Positions 6,547-14,641 of a stretch of 64,000 nucleotides of DNA are shown here, one piece after another. A program made the translations under genes and the position numbers. The first letter of the stretch is position 1. Every line of letters starts with the position of its first letter. The notes beneath the pieces were generated by a model. That model saw nothing but the letters and a program-made list of their open reading frames with translations, was not told the origin of the DNA and searched no databases. The stretch is from Streptomyces durmitorensis (GTDB lineage Bacteria > Actinomycetota > Actinomycetes > Streptomycetales > Streptomycetaceae). The stretch lies in the NCBI RefSeq assembly GCF_023498005.1, contig NZ_CP097289.1, positions 806,001 through 870,000 on the forward strand, read 5' to 3'.

Positions 6547-9405
6547 TCAGCTCAACTGCCGCCGCACCAGCTCATGCAACCGCCCGCCCGTGTCCGCCAA
6601 CAACTGTGCGGGCGGCCCCTGTTGGACGACCCTGCCCTCCGACATGACGATGACGCGGTCCGCGTCCATCACCGTGGAGAGGCGGTGGGCGATGACGATG
6701 CGGGTGGCGTTCAGGGCGCGGGTGCTGTCGATGACCGTGCGTTGCGTCTCGTTGTCCAGGGCGCTCGTCGCCTCGTCGAAGAACAGGACGCGGGGGCGGC
6801 GGATCAGGGCCTGGGCGATCATCAGGCGCTGGCGCTGGCCGCCGGAGACCGCTCCGCCGCCGGAGATCATCGTGTGCAGGCCCATCGGCATGCGCTTGAT
6901 GTCCTCGGCGAGGCCCGCCATCGCCGCGGCCTCCCACGCCTCCTCCTGCGTGAACGTCTCGGCGCCGCAGATGCAGTCCAGGATCGAGCCGGTGAGCGGC
7001 TGGGCGTTCTGCAGGACGACGCCGCACTGGCGGCGGACTGCCGCCTGGTCCAGGGCCGAGAGGTCCTGGCCGTCGTAGAGGACGTTGCCCGAGACCGGCT
7101 TGTCGAAGCCGATCAGGAGGCGAAGGAGCGTCGACTTGCCGCAGCCGCTGGGGCCGACGACCGCGACGAACTCGCCCGGGCGGATGGCCAGGGACACGTC
7201 GTCCAGGACCAGGGGGCCGTCGTCCGCGTAGCGGAAGGACAGGCCGCGGGCCTCGATCTCGCCCTGCAGCTCACCCGGCTGCGTGCTCGCGCCCCGTACC
7301 TCAGGAGCCTCGTCGAGCACCGGCTTGATCTGCTCGAACATCGGAAGGACCGCGGCCGCCGAGATCAGTGCGCCGGTGAGCTGCGTGACGGATGTCAGCA
7401 GCATCGTCACCGCCGTGCTGAAGGTGAGGAACTCCCCTGCCGTGAGGCTGCCGCGGGCCGGGCCCGCGAGGAGGATGAACATGATGAGCGTGCAGAGCGG
7501 GAGGTAGACGGAGTTGAGGACCGTCGTCACGTTCTTGATGCGGCCCGCGCGCTGCTGAAGCTCACGGCTGCGTGCGAACTCCCCCGCCCACGCCGCGTAC
7601 GCGAAGCTCTCCGCTCCCGCGACGCGGAGCTTGGGCAGGCCGCGCAGTGTCTGGAAGGCCTGGTTGTTGAGCTTGTTGCTCAGCTCGATCAGGCGGCGCT
7701 GCCAGCGCAGTTCCCACAGGCCCAGGGTCAGGAACACCGCCGCGATCACGAGCAGCATCGCAAGGGCGGCCAGGGCCAGGGGGACGCTGTAGAGCAGCAG
7801 CAGGACCAGGTTCATCGCGCCGATCGTGCCCGCCTGGAGCGCCACGGGGCCGATGCCCGAGAGCACCCGGCGGATCGCGCTGACGCCCATCGCCGCGCTC
7901 GCCAGTTCGCCTGTGGAGCGGGAGGCGAAGAAGCGGGTGGGCAGGCGCAACAGGCGGTCCCAGACCGCTGGTTGGAGGGCGCTCTCCATACGGCCCTCCA
8001 TCCGCAGGATGGTGAGGTTCTGGAGCAGCATGAAGGCCGCCGAGACGATGCTCGTGATCATCACCGCCAGGGACACCTGGACGATGAGGCTCTTCTCGCC
8101 GTTCGGGACGAACACGCCGAGCACCTGGCCTGTCGCGATCGGCACGAGCGCCCCGATCGCGACCGTCACCAGACCCGCGATCGCCAGATTGCGTACGTCG
8201 CCGCCGGTGCCCCGCAGGCTGAAGCGGAACAGGTGCCACGGCGTCAGCGTCCGCTCCGGCAGCGGGCGGTAGAACATGACCCCCTGCGGCTCGAACTCGT
8301 CCGCGTTGGTCTTGTCGATGCGCATGCGGCGCCCGGAGGTGGGGTGCACCGATTCGTAGCCCCCGCGCCGCCACAGCAGCGCGACCGGCTGCCCGCTGGC
8401 CGCGCGGTGCCCCACCAGCGGCCCCGTGTTCTCACGCCACCAGCGCCCGTCGAGCCGGACGGCACGGGTGCGGATCCGCGAAGCGACCGCGACCTGCTCC
8501 ACCGGGTCGATGCGGTCGCTCACCGCACCTCCCTCCGCGGCGCCGGACAGCGTGATGCCCGCCGCGTCGGCGACCAGACGACAGGCCGCGTACGTCGCGT
8601 CGTCACCGCCCCGCGACGCGCCGCGCCGTGAACCGCCCTTGCCGGAGCGGCCGATGGAGGCGATCAGGGTGCGGTCGGCCTGCTCGCGGACCGTCTCGCC
8701 CGCCTTGATGCCGGCCGCCGTACGGTCCTCGTGAGCCCGCTCCAGGCGTTCGATCCAGCGGTCGAGCGTCGACAGGAGCCGGTACTGCTGGTTGACCATC
8801 CGCTGCCACATGGCGGCATCGACGAGCAGATCGCCCGTGGCCTCCGCGCTGTAGGCGGAGCCGTACTGCACGCTGCCCGGCGCGACCGGCATCCAGAGGA
8901 TGTCGTCGTCGGTCACCACGTCGTCGCCCATGGTGCGACCGTCGAGCGGCGCCTCGAACAGGACTCGGTGGCTGCGTCCGATGCCGAGCGCGAAGGCGTG
9001 CTCGAGCAGGCTCAGGGCCTGGTCCTGAGTGTCGTACTGACTGGGGAACTGCTGCTCGTAGGCCCAGGTGTCGCCGTAGTCGGGGCGGTAGAGCTCGCGC
9101 AGCGGGATGCGGCGCAGCTCGCAGCCCTGGAGGGGGCGTCCGACGAGGGTGTGCTGGGGGCCTTCGACGGGGCCGAGGAGCAGGGTGCCCGGTTCGAGGC
9201 GGCCGAGGAAGTGCCAGTGGCCCTGCTGCACGGCGTCGACCGCGAACAGGTCGAGCGCGCCGGCCACGACGAGCCAAAGCACCTGCGGCCCTTCGAGGTG
9301 CACGCTGCGCAGGCCTGTGCAGTCGGCCGGTGTGCCGAGCGCGCCGAAGGCCGCGGCCACCGAATCGTCGGTGTACGGGGTGTACTGCTCCGGTACCGAG
9401 GTCAC
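6547..9405 (-). CDS. NHLM/NHLP bacteriocin system ABC transporter, permease/ATP-binding protein (second exporter subunit)
   Basis: This 952-residue protein has a long soluble N-terminal region (about 1-390). A six-helix ABC exporter membrane domain (about 395-690) follows. The C-terminal nucleotide-binding domain has Walker A GPSGCGKST, signature SGGQRQRL and Walker B VLFFDEATSALD. The N-terminal part lacks a C39 peptidase, which is the layout of the second ABC protein in NHLP-type leader-peptide export systems. It would work with the peptidase-containing ABC protein to export the double-glycine peptide. The GTG start 9405 lies one base from the upstream stop, and its SD (AAGGAGC) is inside the upstream gene. 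Confidence 0.93.
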   Translation of the reverse strand: MTSVPEQYTPYTDDSVAAAFGALGTPADCTGLRSVHLEGPQVLWLVVAGALDLFAVDAVQQGHWHFLGRLEPGTLLLGPVEGPQHTLVGRPLQGCELRRIPLRELYRPDYGDTWAYEQQFPSQYDTQDQALSLLEHAFALGIGRSHRVLFEAPLDGRTMGDDVVTDDDILWMPVAPGSVQYGSAYSAEATGDLLVDAAMWQRMVNQQYRLLSTLDRWIERLERAHEDRTAAGIKAGETVREQADRTLIASIGRSGKGGSRRGASRGGDDATYAACRLVADAAGITLSGAAEGGAVSDRIDPVEQVAVASRIRTRAVRLDGRWWRENTGPLVGHRAASGQPVALLWRRGGYESVHPTSGRRMRIDKTNADEFEPQGVMFYRPLPERTLTPWHLFRFSLRGTGGDVRNLAIAGLVTVAIGALVPIATGQVLGVFVPNGEKSLIVQVSLAVMITSIVSAAFMLLQNLTILRMEGRMESALQPAVWDRLLRLPTRFFASRSTGELASAAMGVSAIRRVLSGIGPVALQAGTIGAMNLVLLLLYSVPLALAALAMLLVIAAVFLTLGLWELRWQRRLIELSNKLNNQAFQTLRGLPKLRVAGAESFAYAAWAGEFARSRELQQRAGRIKNVTTVLNSVYLPLCTLIMFILLAGPARGSLTAGEFLTFSTAVTMLLTSVTQLTGALISAAAVLPMFEQIKPVLDEAPEVRGASTQPGELQGEIEARGLSFRYADDGPLVLDDVSLAIRPGEFVAVVGPSGCGKSTLLRLLIGFDKPVSGNVLYDGQDLSALDQAAVRRQCGVVLQNAQPLTGSILDCICGAETFTQEEAWEAAAMAGLAEDIKRMPMGLHTMISGGGAVSGGQRQRLMIAQALIRRPRVLFFDEATSALDNETQRTVIDSTRALNATRIVIAHRLSTVMDADRVIVMSEGRVVQQGPPAQLLADTGGRLHELVRRQLS

Positions 9406-9406
9406 C

Positions 9407-11692
9407 TCAGTGCTCCTTGACCAGGTCGGCGTAGGCTCCGCCGGCGGCGACGAGGTGTTCGTGGCGTCCGCGCTCCACGACCTGGCCGTGGTCGAGGACG
9501 ACGATCTCGTCGCTGTCGCGCACGGTGCTCAGGCGGTGCGCGATGACGACGCAGGCGCAGCCGCGGCGGCGCAGGTTGTCGATGATGACCTGCTCGGTCT
9601 CCGCGTCCAGGGCGCTGGTCACCTCGTCGAGGACGAGGATGCTGGGGCGGCGGACCAGGGCCCGCGCGATCTCCAGGCGCTGGCGCTGCCCGCCGGAGAA
9701 GTTGCGGCCGTCCTGCTCGACGCGGCCGTGGATCCCGCCGGGCCTGCGGGCCACGACCTCGTACAGGCAGGCGTCCTTGAGGGCGGCGACGACGGCGTCG
9801 TCGGGGATGGAGGGGTCCCACAGCGCGACGTTGTCGCGGATGGTGCCCTCGAAGAGGAAGACGTCCTGGTCGACGAAGGAGACGGAGGCGGCGAGCGCGC
9901 CGCGCGGGATGTCCTCCAGGCGCTGTCCGTCGATGCGGATCGTGCCCTCCCAGGGGCTGTAGAGCCCCGATATCAGCCGCGAGACGGTCGACTTGCCGCT
10001 GCCGGAGCCGCCGACGAGCGCGACCTGCTGGCCGGGGCCGACCGAGAGGGAGAAGCCGGTCAGGAGCGGCTTGTCGAGGGGGCTGTAGCCGAAGGTGATG
10101 TCGTCGAGGGTGACGTGGCCCTTGAGCCGGCGGGTGCTCGCGGCCGGTTCGGGGCGCGAGTAGAGGGTGTCCACGGGGAAGTTCTCGACGTCCTTGAGGC
10201 GGGCGACGTCGGCGCCGAAGTCCTGGATGCGGCCCGCGACGCCATTCAGGCGGGTGATCGGCGCGGTGAAGCGGGTCACGAGCGCCTGGAACGCGACGAG
10301 CAGACCGATCGACAGGTGTCCTTCGACGGCGCGCAGGCCGCCGATCCACAGGATCAGCGCGCTGTTGAGCGTCGCGAGGGTCGGCGCGACGACGCCGAGC
10401 CAGGCGCTGGGCACGCCGAGGCGCTGCTGCTCCTCCAGGGTGGTGGCGTGCTGGCCCGCCCACCGCCGGAAGTAGCCGTTCTCACCGCCGGTGGCCTTCA
10501 TGGTCTCGATCAACTGCAGGCCGGTGTACGAGGTGTTGGTGAGCTTGGCGCTGTCGGCGCGCAGCTTCTGGGTTCCGGTGGCCCGCAGCCGGATGACGAT
10601 GCGCATCGCGACGATGTTCAGCAGGGCGATGCCGACGCCGACGAGGGTGAGCTGGGGGTCGTACGTCCACAGCAGGGCCGCGTAGAGGAGCACGACGATG
10701 CCGTCGACGCCCGCTGCGGTGAGGTCGCGGGCCAGGGTCTCGGCGACCGCGTCGTTCGACGCGAGCCGCTGGACGAGGTCGGCGGGGCTGCGCTGGGCGT
10801 AGAACGTGACGGGCAGGCGCAGCAGATGGCGCAGGAAGCGTGCGCTGCTGAGCGTGGAGGAGATGATGCGCCCGCGCAGCAGGTTCGCCTGTTGCAGCCA
10901 GGTCAGGACCACGGTGAGCGCGACCATCGCGCCCATGGACGCGAACAGCGCGCCGAGCAGCGAGGTCTGATCGCCGATCAGGAACAGGTCGATGTACGTG
11001 CGGCTGAGCGCGGGCAGTGCCGCGCCGACGGCGACGAGCAGCAGGCTGGCGAAGAGCGCGGCGAGCATGGTGCCCGTGGTGCCGCGAAGGCGCGCGGGCA
11101 GGGCCCGCATGACGCCGGGCCTGCGCCCTCCGGTGCGGAAGTTCTCACCGGGTTCCAGGACCAGGACGACTCCGGTGAAGCTGGTGTCGAAGTCCTCCGA
11201 GGGGACGAAGCGCCGTCCCTTGTCCGGGTCGTTGATGTGCACGCCGCGGCGGCCCAGGCGACGCCCCATGCCGTCGTAGACGACGTAGTGGTTGAACTCC
11301 CAGAAGAGGATCGCGGGCGCCTTCACCTCGGCGAGCGCGGCCGGTTCCATCTGCATGCCCTTGGCCGTGAGGCCGTAACTGCGCGCCGCTTTCAGGAGGT
11401 TGCTGGCGCGCGAGCCGTCGCGCGATACGCCGCAGGCGATGCGCAGCTCCTCCAGCGGGACGTGCCGTCCGTAGTGGGCGAGGACCATGGCGAGCGCGGC
11501 GGCGCCGCACTCCACGGCCTCCATCTGCAGGACCGTGGGGGTGCGGACGGTCTTCTGCCGCTTGCCCTTCGACGCGGGGCGCGGGGCTGCGCGGCGGCGG
11601 TTGCGCTGCGGCGGCTCGGGGCGGTGCCTGCGTCGGCCGCCGGGGGGCGGCAGTTGCTGCTGGTGCGCCGGTGAGGGGTGCGGTGCGGTCAC
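9407..11692 (-). CDS. C39-peptidase-containing ABC exporter of the NHLP bacteriocin type (PCAT)
   Basis: The 761-residue protein has a Pro/Arg-rich N-terminal tail and then a C39 peptidase domain. The catalytic cysteine is Cys62 in the motif EAVECGAAAL, with the histidine in FNHYVVYD and the aspartate in INDPDKG. A membrane domain and an ABC domain follow (Walker A GGSGSGKST, signature SGGQRQRL, Walker B ILVLDEVTSALD). It should cleave the precursor after Gly-Gly and export the core. GTG 11692 is chosen because it overlaps the adaptor stop as GTGA, implying translational coupling. A frame extending to 11794 would overlap the adaptor by about 100 bp. Confidence 0.93.
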   Translation of the reverse strand: MTAPHPSPAHQQQLPPPGGRRRHRPEPPQRNRRRAAPRPASKGKRQKTVRTPTVLQMEAVECGAAALAMVLAHYGRHVPLEELRIACGVSRDGSRASNLLKAARSYGLTAKGMQMEPAALAEVKAPAILFWEFNHYVVYDGMGRRLGRRGVHINDPDKGRRFVPSEDFDTSFTGVVLVLEPGENFRTGGRRPGVMRALPARLRGTTGTMLAALFASLLLVAVGAALPALSRTYIDLFLIGDQTSLLGALFASMGAMVALTVVLTWLQQANLLRGRIISSTLSSARFLRHLLRLPVTFYAQRSPADLVQRLASNDAVAETLARDLTAAGVDGIVVLLYAALLWTYDPQLTLVGVGIALLNIVAMRIVIRLRATGTQKLRADSAKLTNTSYTGLQLIETMKATGGENGYFRRWAGQHATTLEEQQRLGVPSAWLGVVAPTLATLNSALILWIGGLRAVEGHLSIGLLVAFQALVTRFTAPITRLNGVAGRIQDFGADVARLKDVENFPVDTLYSRPEPAASTRRLKGHVTLDDITFGYSPLDKPLLTGFSLSVGPGQQVALVGGSGSGKSTVSRLISGLYSPWEGTIRIDGQRLEDIPRGALAASVSFVDQDVFLFEGTIRDNVALWDPSIPDDAVVAALKDACLYEVVARRPGGIHGRVEQDGRNFSGGQRQRLEIARALVRRPSILVLDEVTSALDAETEQVIIDNLRRRGCACVVIAHRLSTVRDSDEIVVLDHGQVVERGRHEHLVAAGGAYADLVKEH

Positions 11693-12495
11693 GGAAGCAG
11701 CCAATCGATCGGGCGCTGCTCGGCGAGGTGGAAGGCGCCGCTGGCCAGGGTCATGGATTCGAGCGCGAAGGGCGGGCCGCCGTCGGACGACCACTGGTAG
11801 CCGGACTTGGCGGACGAGGAGCGTTCGAGCTGCACCAGGACGCCCACGGGTGGCCCGTCCTTGGTGAACTGCCCGGCCAGTTCCTTGTCGCCGAGGAATC
11901 CGCTGATCTTCTGTTCGCTCTGTGCGGCTCGTCCGATCGCCTTCACGCGGCCTCGCAGCGTGCCGTACTCCTGGGTGGGCACGGACTGGACCGTGAGGTC
12001 CACCGAGGCGCCGACGGGGACGGTGGCCGCGCTGTCCGCGGGTACGTAGATCATGGCGAGGAGGGGGTCGTCGCTGCCCGAGACCCGCTCGACGTTCGCG
12101 ACGTCGGCGCCGGTGGTGACGACGGTGCCGATCCTGGCGACCAGCGTGGTCACGCGGCCGGCGGCGATGGAGCGTACGACCTTGTCGCCCTGGTCCGTAC
12201 GGACCTTGAGCACGGGAGCGCCCGCGGCGATCCGTTTGCCCTCTTCGGCAAGGACCCGGGTCACCTGTCCGGTGACGGGGCTCTGCAGGACGTAACTGCC
12301 CTGGCCGTGGGTGAGGATGCCGGGCGCCTTGAGCGTGGAGGAGATCGAGCCGGTCACGGCCCAGACGCTCGCGGCGGCCATGACGACGACGGTGACAGCG
12401 AGCACGAGCAGGCCCTGGGGTCGGGCGTAGCGCACCGGCAGGTCGAGTTCCTCGGGCGACTGCAGCTTGGACAGGGCCTGTTGACGGAACTGCAC
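11689..12495 (-). CDS. HlyD-type membrane-fusion/adaptor protein of the peptide exporter
   Basis: The 268 residues contain one N-terminal membrane segment (about 30-52) followed by a biotinyl-lipoyl-like hairpin domain. A beta-rich part matches HlyD-family efflux adaptors (NHLM secretion protein type). In a Gram-positive it would sit outside the membrane and assist the two ABC proteins. GTG 12495 is supported by GGGAAG about 7 bases upstream. It is the first exporter gene after the precursor, separated from it by a strong hairpin. Confidence 0.9.
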   Translation of the reverse strand: MQFRQQALSKLQSPEELDLPVRYARPQGLLVLAVTVVVMAAASVWAVTGSISSTLKAPGILTHGQGSYVLQSPVTGQVTRVLAEEGKRIAAGAPVLKVRTDQGDKVVRSIAAGRVTTLVARIGTVVTTGADVANVERVSGSDDPLLAMIYVPADSAATVPVGASVDLTVQSVPTQEYGTLRGRVKAIGRAAQSEQKISGFLGDKELAGQFTKDGPPVGVLVQLERSSSAKSGYQWSSDGGPPFALESMTLASGAFHLAEQRPIDWLLP

Positions 12496-12526
12496 GGAAC
12501 GCTTCCCTTACTTTGCCTGTGGCGTC

Positions 12527-12561
12527 CGTGAGCCCCGGAACCAGTGGTTCCGGGGCTCACG
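12527..12561 (-). terminator. perfect 17-bp hairpin between precursor and exporter genes
   Basis: The 17-base arm from 12527 is the exact reverse complement of the arm ending at 12561, with one unpaired central base, so the usable loop is a few bases wide. It lies 28 bp after the precursor stop and 32 bp before the adaptor start. As a partial terminator it would give much more precursor than exporter mRNA. Confidence 0.75.
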
Positions 12562-12588
12562 AATCGTGGTGTCTCAGTGAGCGAAGGC

Positions 12589-12816
12589 TCAGAGACCGGC
12601 GGTCAGGCCGGAGGCCAGGCCCGTGACGGCGCCGGTGTTGAGGCCGGTGACGCCCTCAACGGTGCCGACGACGCCGCCGACGACGCCCGAGACGGGGGCG
12701 ATGGAGTCAACGGTGCTGGTGACGTTGCCCGCGACACCGGCGACGAGGCCACCGGAGACGTTGTCGAGGTCGGCGTCGGAAATCTCGAGGGTCTCGACCT
12801 GGGGGGTGTAGTTCAT
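12589..12816 (-). CDS. double-glycine leader precursor peptide, cysteine-free Gly/Val/Thr-rich core
   Basis: The 75-residue product has a 23-residue acidic leader containing LEISDADLDNVSGG, a classic C39 cleavage leader. The 52-residue core contains no Cys, Lys, Arg, His, Trp, Phe or Tyr and is dominated by Gly, Val, Thr, Ala and Ser. Spaced GVVGGVV- and TGL-type patterns end in TAGL. ATG 12816 is chosen over ATG 12837 because GAGAAGGG sits 11 bases upstream of it and overlaps the earlier codon. It is the first gene of the exporter operon and the obvious cargo. No lanthionine, cyclodehydratase or radical-SAM gene is nearby, so the core may be unmodified. A bacteriocin, a self-assembling surface peptide or a signal are all possible. 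Confidence 0.88.
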   Translation of the reverse strand: MNYTPQVETLEISDADLDNVSGGLVAGVAGNVTSTVDSIAPVSGVVGGVVGTVEGVTGLNTGAVTGLASGLTAGL

Positions 12817-13058
12817 GGTGTGAGCTGCCCTTCTCATGAATGTTGCAAAGGTGTTTCCAACACTGCGGAACTTGATGTGCGAATTCCGCGGTGGCCAGGA
12901 TCAAAGCACGTTCGCACGTCGTACATCCAATCGACGAGACGGCGGGCGACGGCGCCCGCGGCGTCGAATCACCGCTGCGTGCAGGCATGTTCACCGCTCG
13001 GGAGCAGCTCCTTCACAAGATTCACAGAAGGAAATCCGGTGAGCGGAAGGACTCCCTC

Positions 13059-13088
13059 CACCAAAGCGGACACTCTCGCACCAAAGCG
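13059..13088. repeat. 10-bp direct repeat, 20-bp spacing
   Basis: CACCAAAGCG occurs at 13059-13068 and again at 13079-13088, start to start 20 bp, about two helical turns. This suggests a regulator site upstream of the precursor operon. Binding has not been shown. Confidence 0.4.
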
Positions 13089-13229: not shown

Positions 13230-14189
13230 TCAGGCCTCCGCCACCGCACCGTCGGTGGAGGCACCGGAGGCGATTCCGTGGCCGGGCTCAGGCACCGACT
13301 CCGGGGCGAGCAGCACCGAGCGGCGGCCGTCGACGCCGACCGGCACGTCGCCGTCGATGGTGACGCGGCGCAGGGTGCGCTCGTGGTCGTCGGAGTCGTC
13401 CACTCCGTAGTGCTGCGTCGCGCGGTTGTCCCAGATGGCGACGTCGCCCGCGCGCCACTGCCAGCGGACCGTGTTCTCCGGCCGCTCCACATGTGACTGG
13501 AGTACGCCGATCAAGGCGCGGGAGTCGGCGGCCCGGAACCCGCTGAGCTTCTGCAGGAAGTTGCCCAGGATCAGGGTGCGTTCACCGGTCTCGGGGTGCA
13601 CGCGGACCACGGGGTGCTCGGTCTGGAACGTGACGGCGGTGAACACCTTCCGGTGCTGTTCGAGCGCCGCGGAGGAGGCGCCGGGGCGGGTGGCCGCGTA
13701 GTCGTAGTCGTTGGTGTGCACGCCGCGCACGCTGTCGGCGAGGGTGCGCAGCGGCTCGGGCAGGTCCCGGTACGCGGCGGCGGTGTTGGACCACAGGGTG
13801 TTGCCGCCGTACGGCGGGATGACCTCGGCGCGCAGGATGGAGAACGCCGGGTAGGCGGGCACGAACGTGACGTCGGTGTGCCACTGGTTGGCGCGGCCGC
13901 CGCGTTCGTTGTCGATGCCGAGGGCGTAACGGCCGTCCACGGAGGGCACGGTGGGGTGGGCGACGGGGGTGCCGAGCAGCCGGGCGAAGGCCTCGTGGCT
14001 CTCCCCGTCGAGGTGCTGCTGGTCGCGGAAGAAGACGACCTTGTGCTCCAGGAGCGCGGCACGTACGGCGGCCACGGTCACCTCGTCCAGGTCACCGCCG
14101 AGCCGGACTCCGGATATCACCGCGCCGATGCGGCCGCCGACTTTCTGGACGGTGAGGGTGGGGCTCTGCACTACAGGTGCGGACGTCAT
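13230..14189 (-). CDS. TauD/TfdA family 2-oxoglutarate-Fe(II) dioxygenase (taurine or sulfate-ester type)
   Basis: The 319 residues have the TauD fold with the iron triad His-x-Asp in QWHTDVTF and the distal His in ATQHYGV. A 2-oxoglutarate-binding Arg follows in the [10 protein letters not shown] region. Enzymes of this group hydroxylate the carbon next to sulfonate or sulfate, releasing sulfite or sulfate for growth. The closest look is to taurine dioxygenase/AtsK-like alkylsulfatases. ATG 14189 has GAAGGG about 10 bases upstream. The frame continues upstream without credible starts. A cysteine-containing leader ORF precedes it by 170 bp, which supports a role in sulfur supply. Confidence 0.92.
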
Positions 14190-14641
14190 GGGTTGAAATC
14201 CCTTCGGTGGGGCGGGCGTTAGATGCTCTCGGAGCGGAACGAAATCAGCGCAGGTCAGACGGCATCGCTGCCCGAGCGAGATGAGACGCGGGGCGCAGGG
14301 ACGCGAGGACGCACGGCTGCGAGGCTGCGGGGCAGCGGCAGAGACGAGAGAAGCGGCGGTCAGGCCACGCGCAGACGACACGCAGCGGATACGCGGCGGC
14401 CCAGGTCTACGTGAAGCCGCGGGACGAGAGGGGTCATCGCGGTCATGTCCAGGAGCATGGCCGCCCGCCGGAAGCGCGGTCAAGGTCTCCCCCGCCCGCT
14501 TCACGACCCTGCAACGCGCCCGTCACCGCACGCGTGACGCGGACCACTGCCACTCGCCAAATGCCCTGCGCACAGGGCACGTTGGACCACCTGGCCCGCG
14601 AACTCCCCCACACATCCTCCCCTCCCCCGGAAGGCGCAGTC
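14190..14641. other. divergent intergenic region between tauD-like and ROK genes
   Basis: This 452-bp region contains the minus-strand leader peptide ORF at 14360-14446 and must hold promoters for both flanking genes. The part between 14450 and 14625 holds nothing I can identify. GGAAGG at 14629-14634 is the SD of the ROK gene. Confidence 0.6.
14360..14446 (-). CDS. putative cysteine-containing leader peptide upstream of the TauD-like gene
   Basis: A 28-codon ORF starts at ATG 14446, with a second ATG at 14437. Its middle reads [16 protein letters not shown] and it stops at 14360. The pattern R-x-H-V-D-L-x-R followed by Cys recurs in three other short ORFs of this window, each in front of a sulfur-related gene. 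Actinobacterial uORFs of this look are thought to couple cysteine availability, by ribosome stalling at Cys codons, to expression of the downstream operon. It is too short to have been predicted by normal gene finding. The SD is weak. Confidence 0.7.

Follow-up and report, generated by a model that had tools for sequence, protein, structure and literature searches.

The stretch of DNA considered here (the window) is a 64-kb segment of the 9.86-Mb genome of Streptomyces durmitorensis (NZ_CP097289.1, positions 806,001-870,000), and the system of interest within it is a four-gene operon for a small double-glycine peptide and its exporter. A sequence-only reading of the window had described a double-glycine precursor, an HlyD-like adaptor, an NHLM-type ATP-binding cassette (ABC) protein with a C39 peptidase domain (ABC1), and a second NHLM-type ABC protein (ABC2); all four genes are present and were correctly read. 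As judged from gene order and precursor homology, the operon belongs to the family of SCO0753-0756 of Streptomyces coelicolor, which the available text of PMC6629963 describes as a single peptide together with the exporter that serves it. The operon itself is thus already described; what is added here is a set of double-glycine peptide genes located elsewhere on the chromosome (in trans) that share the promoter of the precursor gene next to the exporter (in cis). Neither the trans peptides nor the shared promoter was met in the titles and abstract openings of the related literature. We consider it fairly probable that one exporter secretes a whole regulon of unmodified, probably surface-acting peptides, a reading in which we infer the chemistry, secretion, regulator, and function.

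The operon, its relatives, and its distribution

The precursor consists of a 23-residue leader, MNYTPQVETLEISDADLDNVSGG, and a 52-residue core that lacks Cys. It has no match in Pfam or NCBIfam (E 0.001), and this includes the NHLP and Nif11 leader domains. ABC1 and ABC2 both score above the cut-offs of their respective models, TIGR03796 and TIGR03797, the pairing that marks an NHLM exporter, and the adaptor falls slightly below the cut-off of TIGR03794 (Table 1). Both ABC proteins retain intact Walker A, signature, and Walker B motifs. The C39 domain of ABC1, the sole C39 match in the whole genome, keeps the Gln, Cys, His, and Asp that we take to be its catalytic residues. The earlier description of the genes as adjacent and tightly coupled holds for the exporter: a GTGA overlap joins the hlyD stop to the ABC1 start (11692), and a single base separates the TGA stop of ABC1 from the GTG start of ABC2 at 9405. 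It does not extend to the precursor, because a 93-bp gap with an inverted repeat inside sets that gene off from hlyD.

This inverted repeat (Table 1) is a conserved feature of the family. The stem CCGGA...TCCGG recurs in 79 of 81 loci (the window and the 80 named ones), one of its pairs being C-G in 33 loci and T-A in 31, and a perfect stem of at least 10 occurs in 61 of the 81 precursor-hlyD spacers versus 1 of 405 shuffles. The repeat is perhaps a partial terminator or a stabiliser of the RNA end; either role is only a guess, since no marked T run follows the stem (2.4 T in 10). A hairpin placed 3' of the precursor may permit more precursor than exporter to be made.

Table 1. Features of the operon and its promoter region (window coordinates)
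Feature	Position	Strand	Remarks
ABC2: permease + ATPase	6547..9405	-	TIGR03797 903.9 bits, cut-off 709.4
ABC1: C39 peptidase + permease + ATPase	9407..11692	-	TIGR03796 1012.7 bits, cut-off 853.3; Peptidase_C39 matched
HlyD-like adaptor	11689..12495	-	TIGR03794 150.6 bits, cut-off 156.2
Perfect 17-bp inverted repeat	12527..12561	-	between precursor and hlyD; RNA fold z -6.3
Precursor peptide gene (SCO0753 family)	12589..12816	-	75 aa; leader 12748-12816, core 12592-12747
Promoter core CGTGCTTTGATC, extended -10-like	12899..12910	-	common to cis and trans peptide genes
-35-like box GATTGGA	12926..12932	-	81-locus upstream alignment
Conserved CCTGCACG element	12978..12985	-	upstream alignment
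Direct repeat GTGAAGGAG / GTGAACA, putative response-regulator site	12988..13016	-	starts 22 bp apart
Conserved GAGTGTCC element	13068..13075	-	upstream alignment

Membership in the SCO0753-0756 family is based on precursor, HlyD, C39-type ABC, and ABC genes in the same order with a homologous precursor (near relatives compared: P0066 and L070). The S. coelicolor operon likewise encodes a Cys-free, hydrophobic precursor and a C39-type exporter (PMC6629963). According to the available text of that study (Arroyo-Perez et al. 2019), SCO0753 is the gene most overexpressed with an activating change in the kinase Sco5282, with a log2 fold change of 6.3 between the activated kinase and the double null (4.25-4.4 for SCO0754-0756). 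The peptide is described there as nearly silent in the null, hydrophobic, Cys-free, and conserved with its exporter, and Sco5283 as an OmpR-type regulator (PMC6629963); the published phenotype of the activated kinase is dispersed growth. The available part of PMC11043171, a paper on GarR/GarS, only cites the 2019 work. The same kind of exporter trio (TIGR03796, TIGR03797, and a TIGR03794-type adaptor, for which the window protein falls just under the cut-off) is found in NHLP/Nif11 systems, whose leader is tied more strongly to the exporter than to any single tailoring enzyme (PMC2887384, as far as available). In contrast to those systems, the window operon has a short leader without an NHLP or Nif11 domain, a Cys-free core, and no maturase that could be found.

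The distribution of exporter and precursor was tallied by hand in 199 Streptomyces genomes, a genome being counted as exporter-positive when its ABC1 scored above the cut-off. The exporter is present by this measure in 145 genomes and a match to the precursor profile in 144; the precursor occurs in 141 of the 145 exporter-positive genomes versus 3 of the 54 others, and 51 genomes have neither (Fisher p 8e-39). In a wider draw from the family (genus included), a match was found in 70 of 150 genomes, representing 8 of 17 genera. Other leaders may be served by four lower-scoring NHLM ABC1 loci at which a comparable precursor match is missing (G167:C66:66933, G173:C14:359486, G038:C1:388136, and G188:C1:307224; L178-L181).

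A promoter shared by cis and trans peptide genes

An alignment of the 81 loci 5' of the cis precursor gene reveals a conserved block: GATTGGA and, after about 19 bp, CGTGCTTTGATCC, with GTGAAGAAG, CGTG, and CCTGCACG farther upstream. In the window, the stretch that runs from GTGAAGGAG through the promoter core measures 118 bp. The 22-bp spacing of the direct repeat is usual for OmpR-type sites. In a group of 71-aa precursors (L060, L070, L079, and others), the sequences inspected carry a G/C-rich, hairpin-like GGGGGCCGCTCCCCC just 5' of the ribosome-binding site.

At least two precursor-profile matches occur in 62 of the 144 genomes with a match (hand count). Of these additional matches, 26 (in 25 genomes) have known positions, and each is either separated from the exporter by 200 kb or more or situated on a different contig. 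Each of the 20 trans loci that were fetched encodes a double-glycine peptide (18 without Cys; L160 and L161 with one Cys), many with the promoter block of the cis genes and some with CGTGCTTACATC. Each neighbour family is confined to 4 or fewer of these 20 loci, and LanC-type queries matched none of them; homologues of the trans peptides are mostly annotated "hypothetical protein." A single C39 peptidase is present in 20 of the 25 genomes, so that in most of them no other double-glycine peptidase of the C39 family was found for the trans peptides. In three of the remaining five genomes, the second C39 match is marginal and confined to a short frame; the other two (G153 and G097) have a second long C39 frame.

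The promoter core also leads to peptide genes when it is used as the query. The pattern CGTGCTTWSATC was run on 30 chosen genomes, 24 of them exporter-positive (nearly all with multiple precursor matches) and 6 exporter-lacking, and gave 48 sites versus 6 for the reversed pattern. A double-glycine peptide follows 42 of the 48 sites: an automatic leader filter, which passes 39 of 4000 random positions in exporter loci, caught the peptides of 35 sites, and 7 more were recognised by reading translations. The six sites that precede no such peptide equal the reversed control in number, and two of them lie in exporter-lacking genomes. The 42 promoter-linked peptides include families missed by the precursor profile (e.g., AGGQAGG types). 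Across the full set of genomes, the core is present in 122 of 145 exporter-positive versus 12 of 54 exporter-lacking genomes (hand tally; p 5e-16). A second core site in the genome of the window (C1:6106792) lies within a repeat-rich reading frame that has no double-glycine peptide and is taken as chance.

A two-part pattern (GTGAAGAAG, a gap of 82-106, and GTGCTTWSATC), designed after the promoters had been seen, was applied to all 199 genomes. It produced 54 hits in 52 genomes, all of them exporter-positive, and none when reversed. Although spans of 102-126 bp were allowed, every hit spans 116-119 bp; the window promoter itself departs from the pattern by one mismatch, with a span of 118. 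By position, 49 of the 54 hits belong to cis genes, and the constant spacing therefore partly reflects descent. The other five (in G072, G029, G052, G097, and G027) all precede double-glycine peptides, including that of G027, a genome outside the 30 previously examined.

The sequence-only reading had called the operon self-contained, which is half right: the cis set is intact, yet peptide genes encoded elsewhere under the same promoter seem to depend on its exporter. Promoter sharing and co-occurrence are observed, and on these grounds the trans peptides very probably use the exporter of the cis operon.

Core chemistry and the search for a maturase

Homologues of the precursor number 469, of which 120 were listed, and those among the listed that carry an organism name are from Streptomyces. 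Databases often label them "type A2 lantipeptide," that is, a class II lanthipeptide, and the Cys on which that class depends is missing from the listed cis cores: no core Cys occurs in the 120 listed homologues or in the 80 distinct coding sequences, and these cores can therefore contain no lanthionine. Cys is likewise missing from 16 divergent cis precursors at further exporter loci (L162-L177). The listed cis cores contain no Lys or Arg, and the cis cores have a median charge of -2 and almost no aromatic residues. The core is under purifying selection that is weaker than on the leader (omega 0.43 versus 0.20, from 747 close, non-independent pairs). The core is Gly-rich and hydrophobic; it contains 11 small-xxx-small pairs, versus a mean of 6.7 in shuffles (p 0.012). 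An internal two-fold repeat of the core, reached by 0 of 1000 shuffles on the consensus, had p 0.061 on the window core and is not claimed.

The surroundings of the operon were compared in the 80 named loci, which extend to 10 kb from the precursor. The operon genes were counted anew with tblastn; counts of other neighbours are approximate, as genes in the fetched loci were called with our own rule based on codon-position G+C. The four genes are ordered and on the same strand in 77 of the 80 loci, and the remaining three run off contig ends. The commonest additional neighbour, in 41 loci, is a divergent secreted protease of the trypsin/alpha-lytic type, which adjoins the precursor (L070:8105-9550 and 40 other loci; streptogrisin-like, Trypsin plus alpha-lytic prodomain). 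In the window, the protease side of the precursor is taken by a TauD-family dioxygenase gene (13233-14204, minus strand), which lies upstream of the promoter region and is not a recurrent neighbour in the named loci. The next eight families are two SpoIIE-type phosphatases, Ppx/GppA, an iron-containing redox enzyme, a methyltransferase, a major facilitator superfamily protein, a metallophosphatase, and a sugar-nucleotide dehydratase. The Ppx/GppA gene (the kind named SCO0757 in S. coelicolor) follows the operon in 25 of the 80 loci. In 20-22 loci the methyltransferase and the iron-containing redox enzyme lie 8-9 kb downstream, and they were judged to be chromosomal neighbourhood.

These nine commonest families, each in at least 16 loci, are those that were annotated, and no maturase, LanM included, is among them; rarer neighbours were left unannotated, and no search was aimed at radical SAM or other enzymes. 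The genome of the window has no YcaO match and two LanC-like matches, one on contig 2 and one at 6.56 Mb (a LanKC-type gene 5.7 Mb from the operon). The earlier view that no modifying enzyme accompanies the operon stands for the recurrent neighbours of its 80 copies, as it does for the window. Used as queries, the long frames of the contig-2 locus matched none of 180 loci. The 6.56-Mb protein matched ten named loci: nine with a LanKC-type gene (class III lanthipeptide synthetase, kinase plus LanC-like) 8-10 kb upstream at the locus edge (L069, L106, L110, L103, L076, L060, L089, L086, and L063) and one with a remnant 5 kb upstream (L094). The neighbour tabulation that the sequence-only reading had proposed turned up no conserved maturase among recurrent families, and its "no enzyme nearby" is not universal. 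Such genes could lie farther off in more loci, given that the loci end 10 kb from the precursor. The LanKC-type gene was nevertheless set aside as a maturase, because most loci show none within 10 kb and because two ABC genes, a SpoIIE-type phosphatase, and a protease intervene in L106.

Proposed export and possible roles of the peptides

The operon would make and export an unmodified, hydrophobic, anionic peptide. By analogy with its family, the C39 domain of ABC1 would cut after the double glycine, and ABC1, ABC2, and HlyD would move the 52-residue core out of the cell. The exporter would also be the hub of a regulon, in that stand-alone trans double-glycine genes with the same two-part promoter would use it. 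In view of the induction of SCO0753-0756 by activated Sco5282, an OmpR-type response regulator (Sco5283 in S. coelicolor) is the likely activator of this promoter. For the peptides, the most likely site of action is the hyphal surface or envelope, where they would work like morphogens or surfactants and not as antibiotics; the chemistry of the cores, the absence of any conserved immunity gene, and the dispersed growth published for the activated kinase argue in this direction. SapB (RamS) and other streptomycete surface peptides are likewise small, hydrophobic, and secreted, secretion being presumed for the window peptide, and the likeness to SapB was drawn in the 2019 paper (PMC6629963). SapB, however, is lantibiotic-like, and the window core has neither Cys nor a dedicated synthetase.

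Three other explanations were weighed against surface-acting, unmodified peptides. The core could be an unmodified bacteriocin of class II type that kills relatives by inserting into their membranes, and the system is so named in some of the literature (in its available parts). The window operon resembles class II bacteriocins and microcins, as these are generally known, in its double-glycine leader, C39 ABC exporter, and HlyD adaptor, and its Gly-rich hydrophobic core, with the excess of small-xxx-small pairs, would suit membrane insertion. It differs from them in the net negative, Lys/Arg-free cis core, which is constrained rather than diversifying, in the spread of the exporter across most of the genus sample, and in the lack of a conserved immunity gene: the operon contains none, and beyond it no family recurs in more than 41 of the 80 loci, that one being the divergent secreted protease. 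The charge, the genus-wide conservation, and the missing immunity gene weaken the bacteriocin reading, which we regard as unlikely. Slightly less likely again is modification of the core, lanthipeptide-like or otherwise, by an enzyme encoded elsewhere. The frequent lantipeptide label, the two LanC-like matches in the genome, and the LanKC-type genes upstream in nine named loci (with a remnant in a tenth) are in its favour; the lack of Cys in the listed cis cores, of YcaO in the genome, of a maturase among recurrent cis neighbours, and of any common neighbour or LanC-type match in the trans loci tells against it. The sequence-only reading had left the choice between unmodified export and a borrowed enzyme, and the evidence supports the former.

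The third possibility is a signalling role, in which the producing strain or its kin would sense the peptides outside the cell; it would fit the two-component control reported for S. coelicolor (PMC6629963). It would also fit several peptides under one promoter, although no receptor-like gene recurs beside the peptide genes. Hydrophobic cores of 46-52 residues are, moreover, long for a peptide messenger, and signalling appears the least probable of the three.

Several observations count against the preferred reading, a regulon of unmodified surface peptides served by one exporter. Exporter and precursor part company in seven genomes, four with the exporter and no profile match (G028, G038, G120, and G188) and three with a match and no exporter above the cut-off (G001, G119, and G180). 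The loose core filter fits 72 of the 81 cis promoters rather than all, G191 has five profile matches and no exact core site, and the 54 exporter-lacking genomes contain 17 core sites versus 5 in the control, an excess explained for only one site (the precursor in G119). The trans peptides are also chemically less uniform: Cys is found in 2 of the 42 promoter-linked peptides (L222 and L226) and in the cores of 13 of 101 trans type-1 and 2 of 32 type-3 homologues, and trans cores can contain up to 2-4 Lys/Arg. Ser and Thr could still be modified. The AlphaFold model of the precursor is helical with low confidence (predicted local distance difference test 59.9) and was not used. Finally, the surface role is argued from chemistry, and direct action of the two-component system is presumed.

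In its fullest form, the proposal is a regulon spanning the genus: a single C39 exporter would secrete unmodified, mostly Cys-free, anionic hydrophobic peptides that are encoded singly across the chromosome behind one promoter of fixed geometry, which an OmpR-type regulator would read, and the peptides would jointly shape the hyphal surface or mycelial cohesion. This is put forward tentatively, as a serious candidate that falls somewhat short of probable. Many such genes carry a lantipeptide label and are taken for antibiotic clusters; the label does not pass the test that defines it. With the shared promoter, the curiosity of a single operon becomes a testable regulon, since this promoter predicts peptide genes that the profile misses and names the exporter they would need. 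Such a regulon would offer an entry to the control of mycelial clumping in streptomycetes, which is relevant to fermentation.

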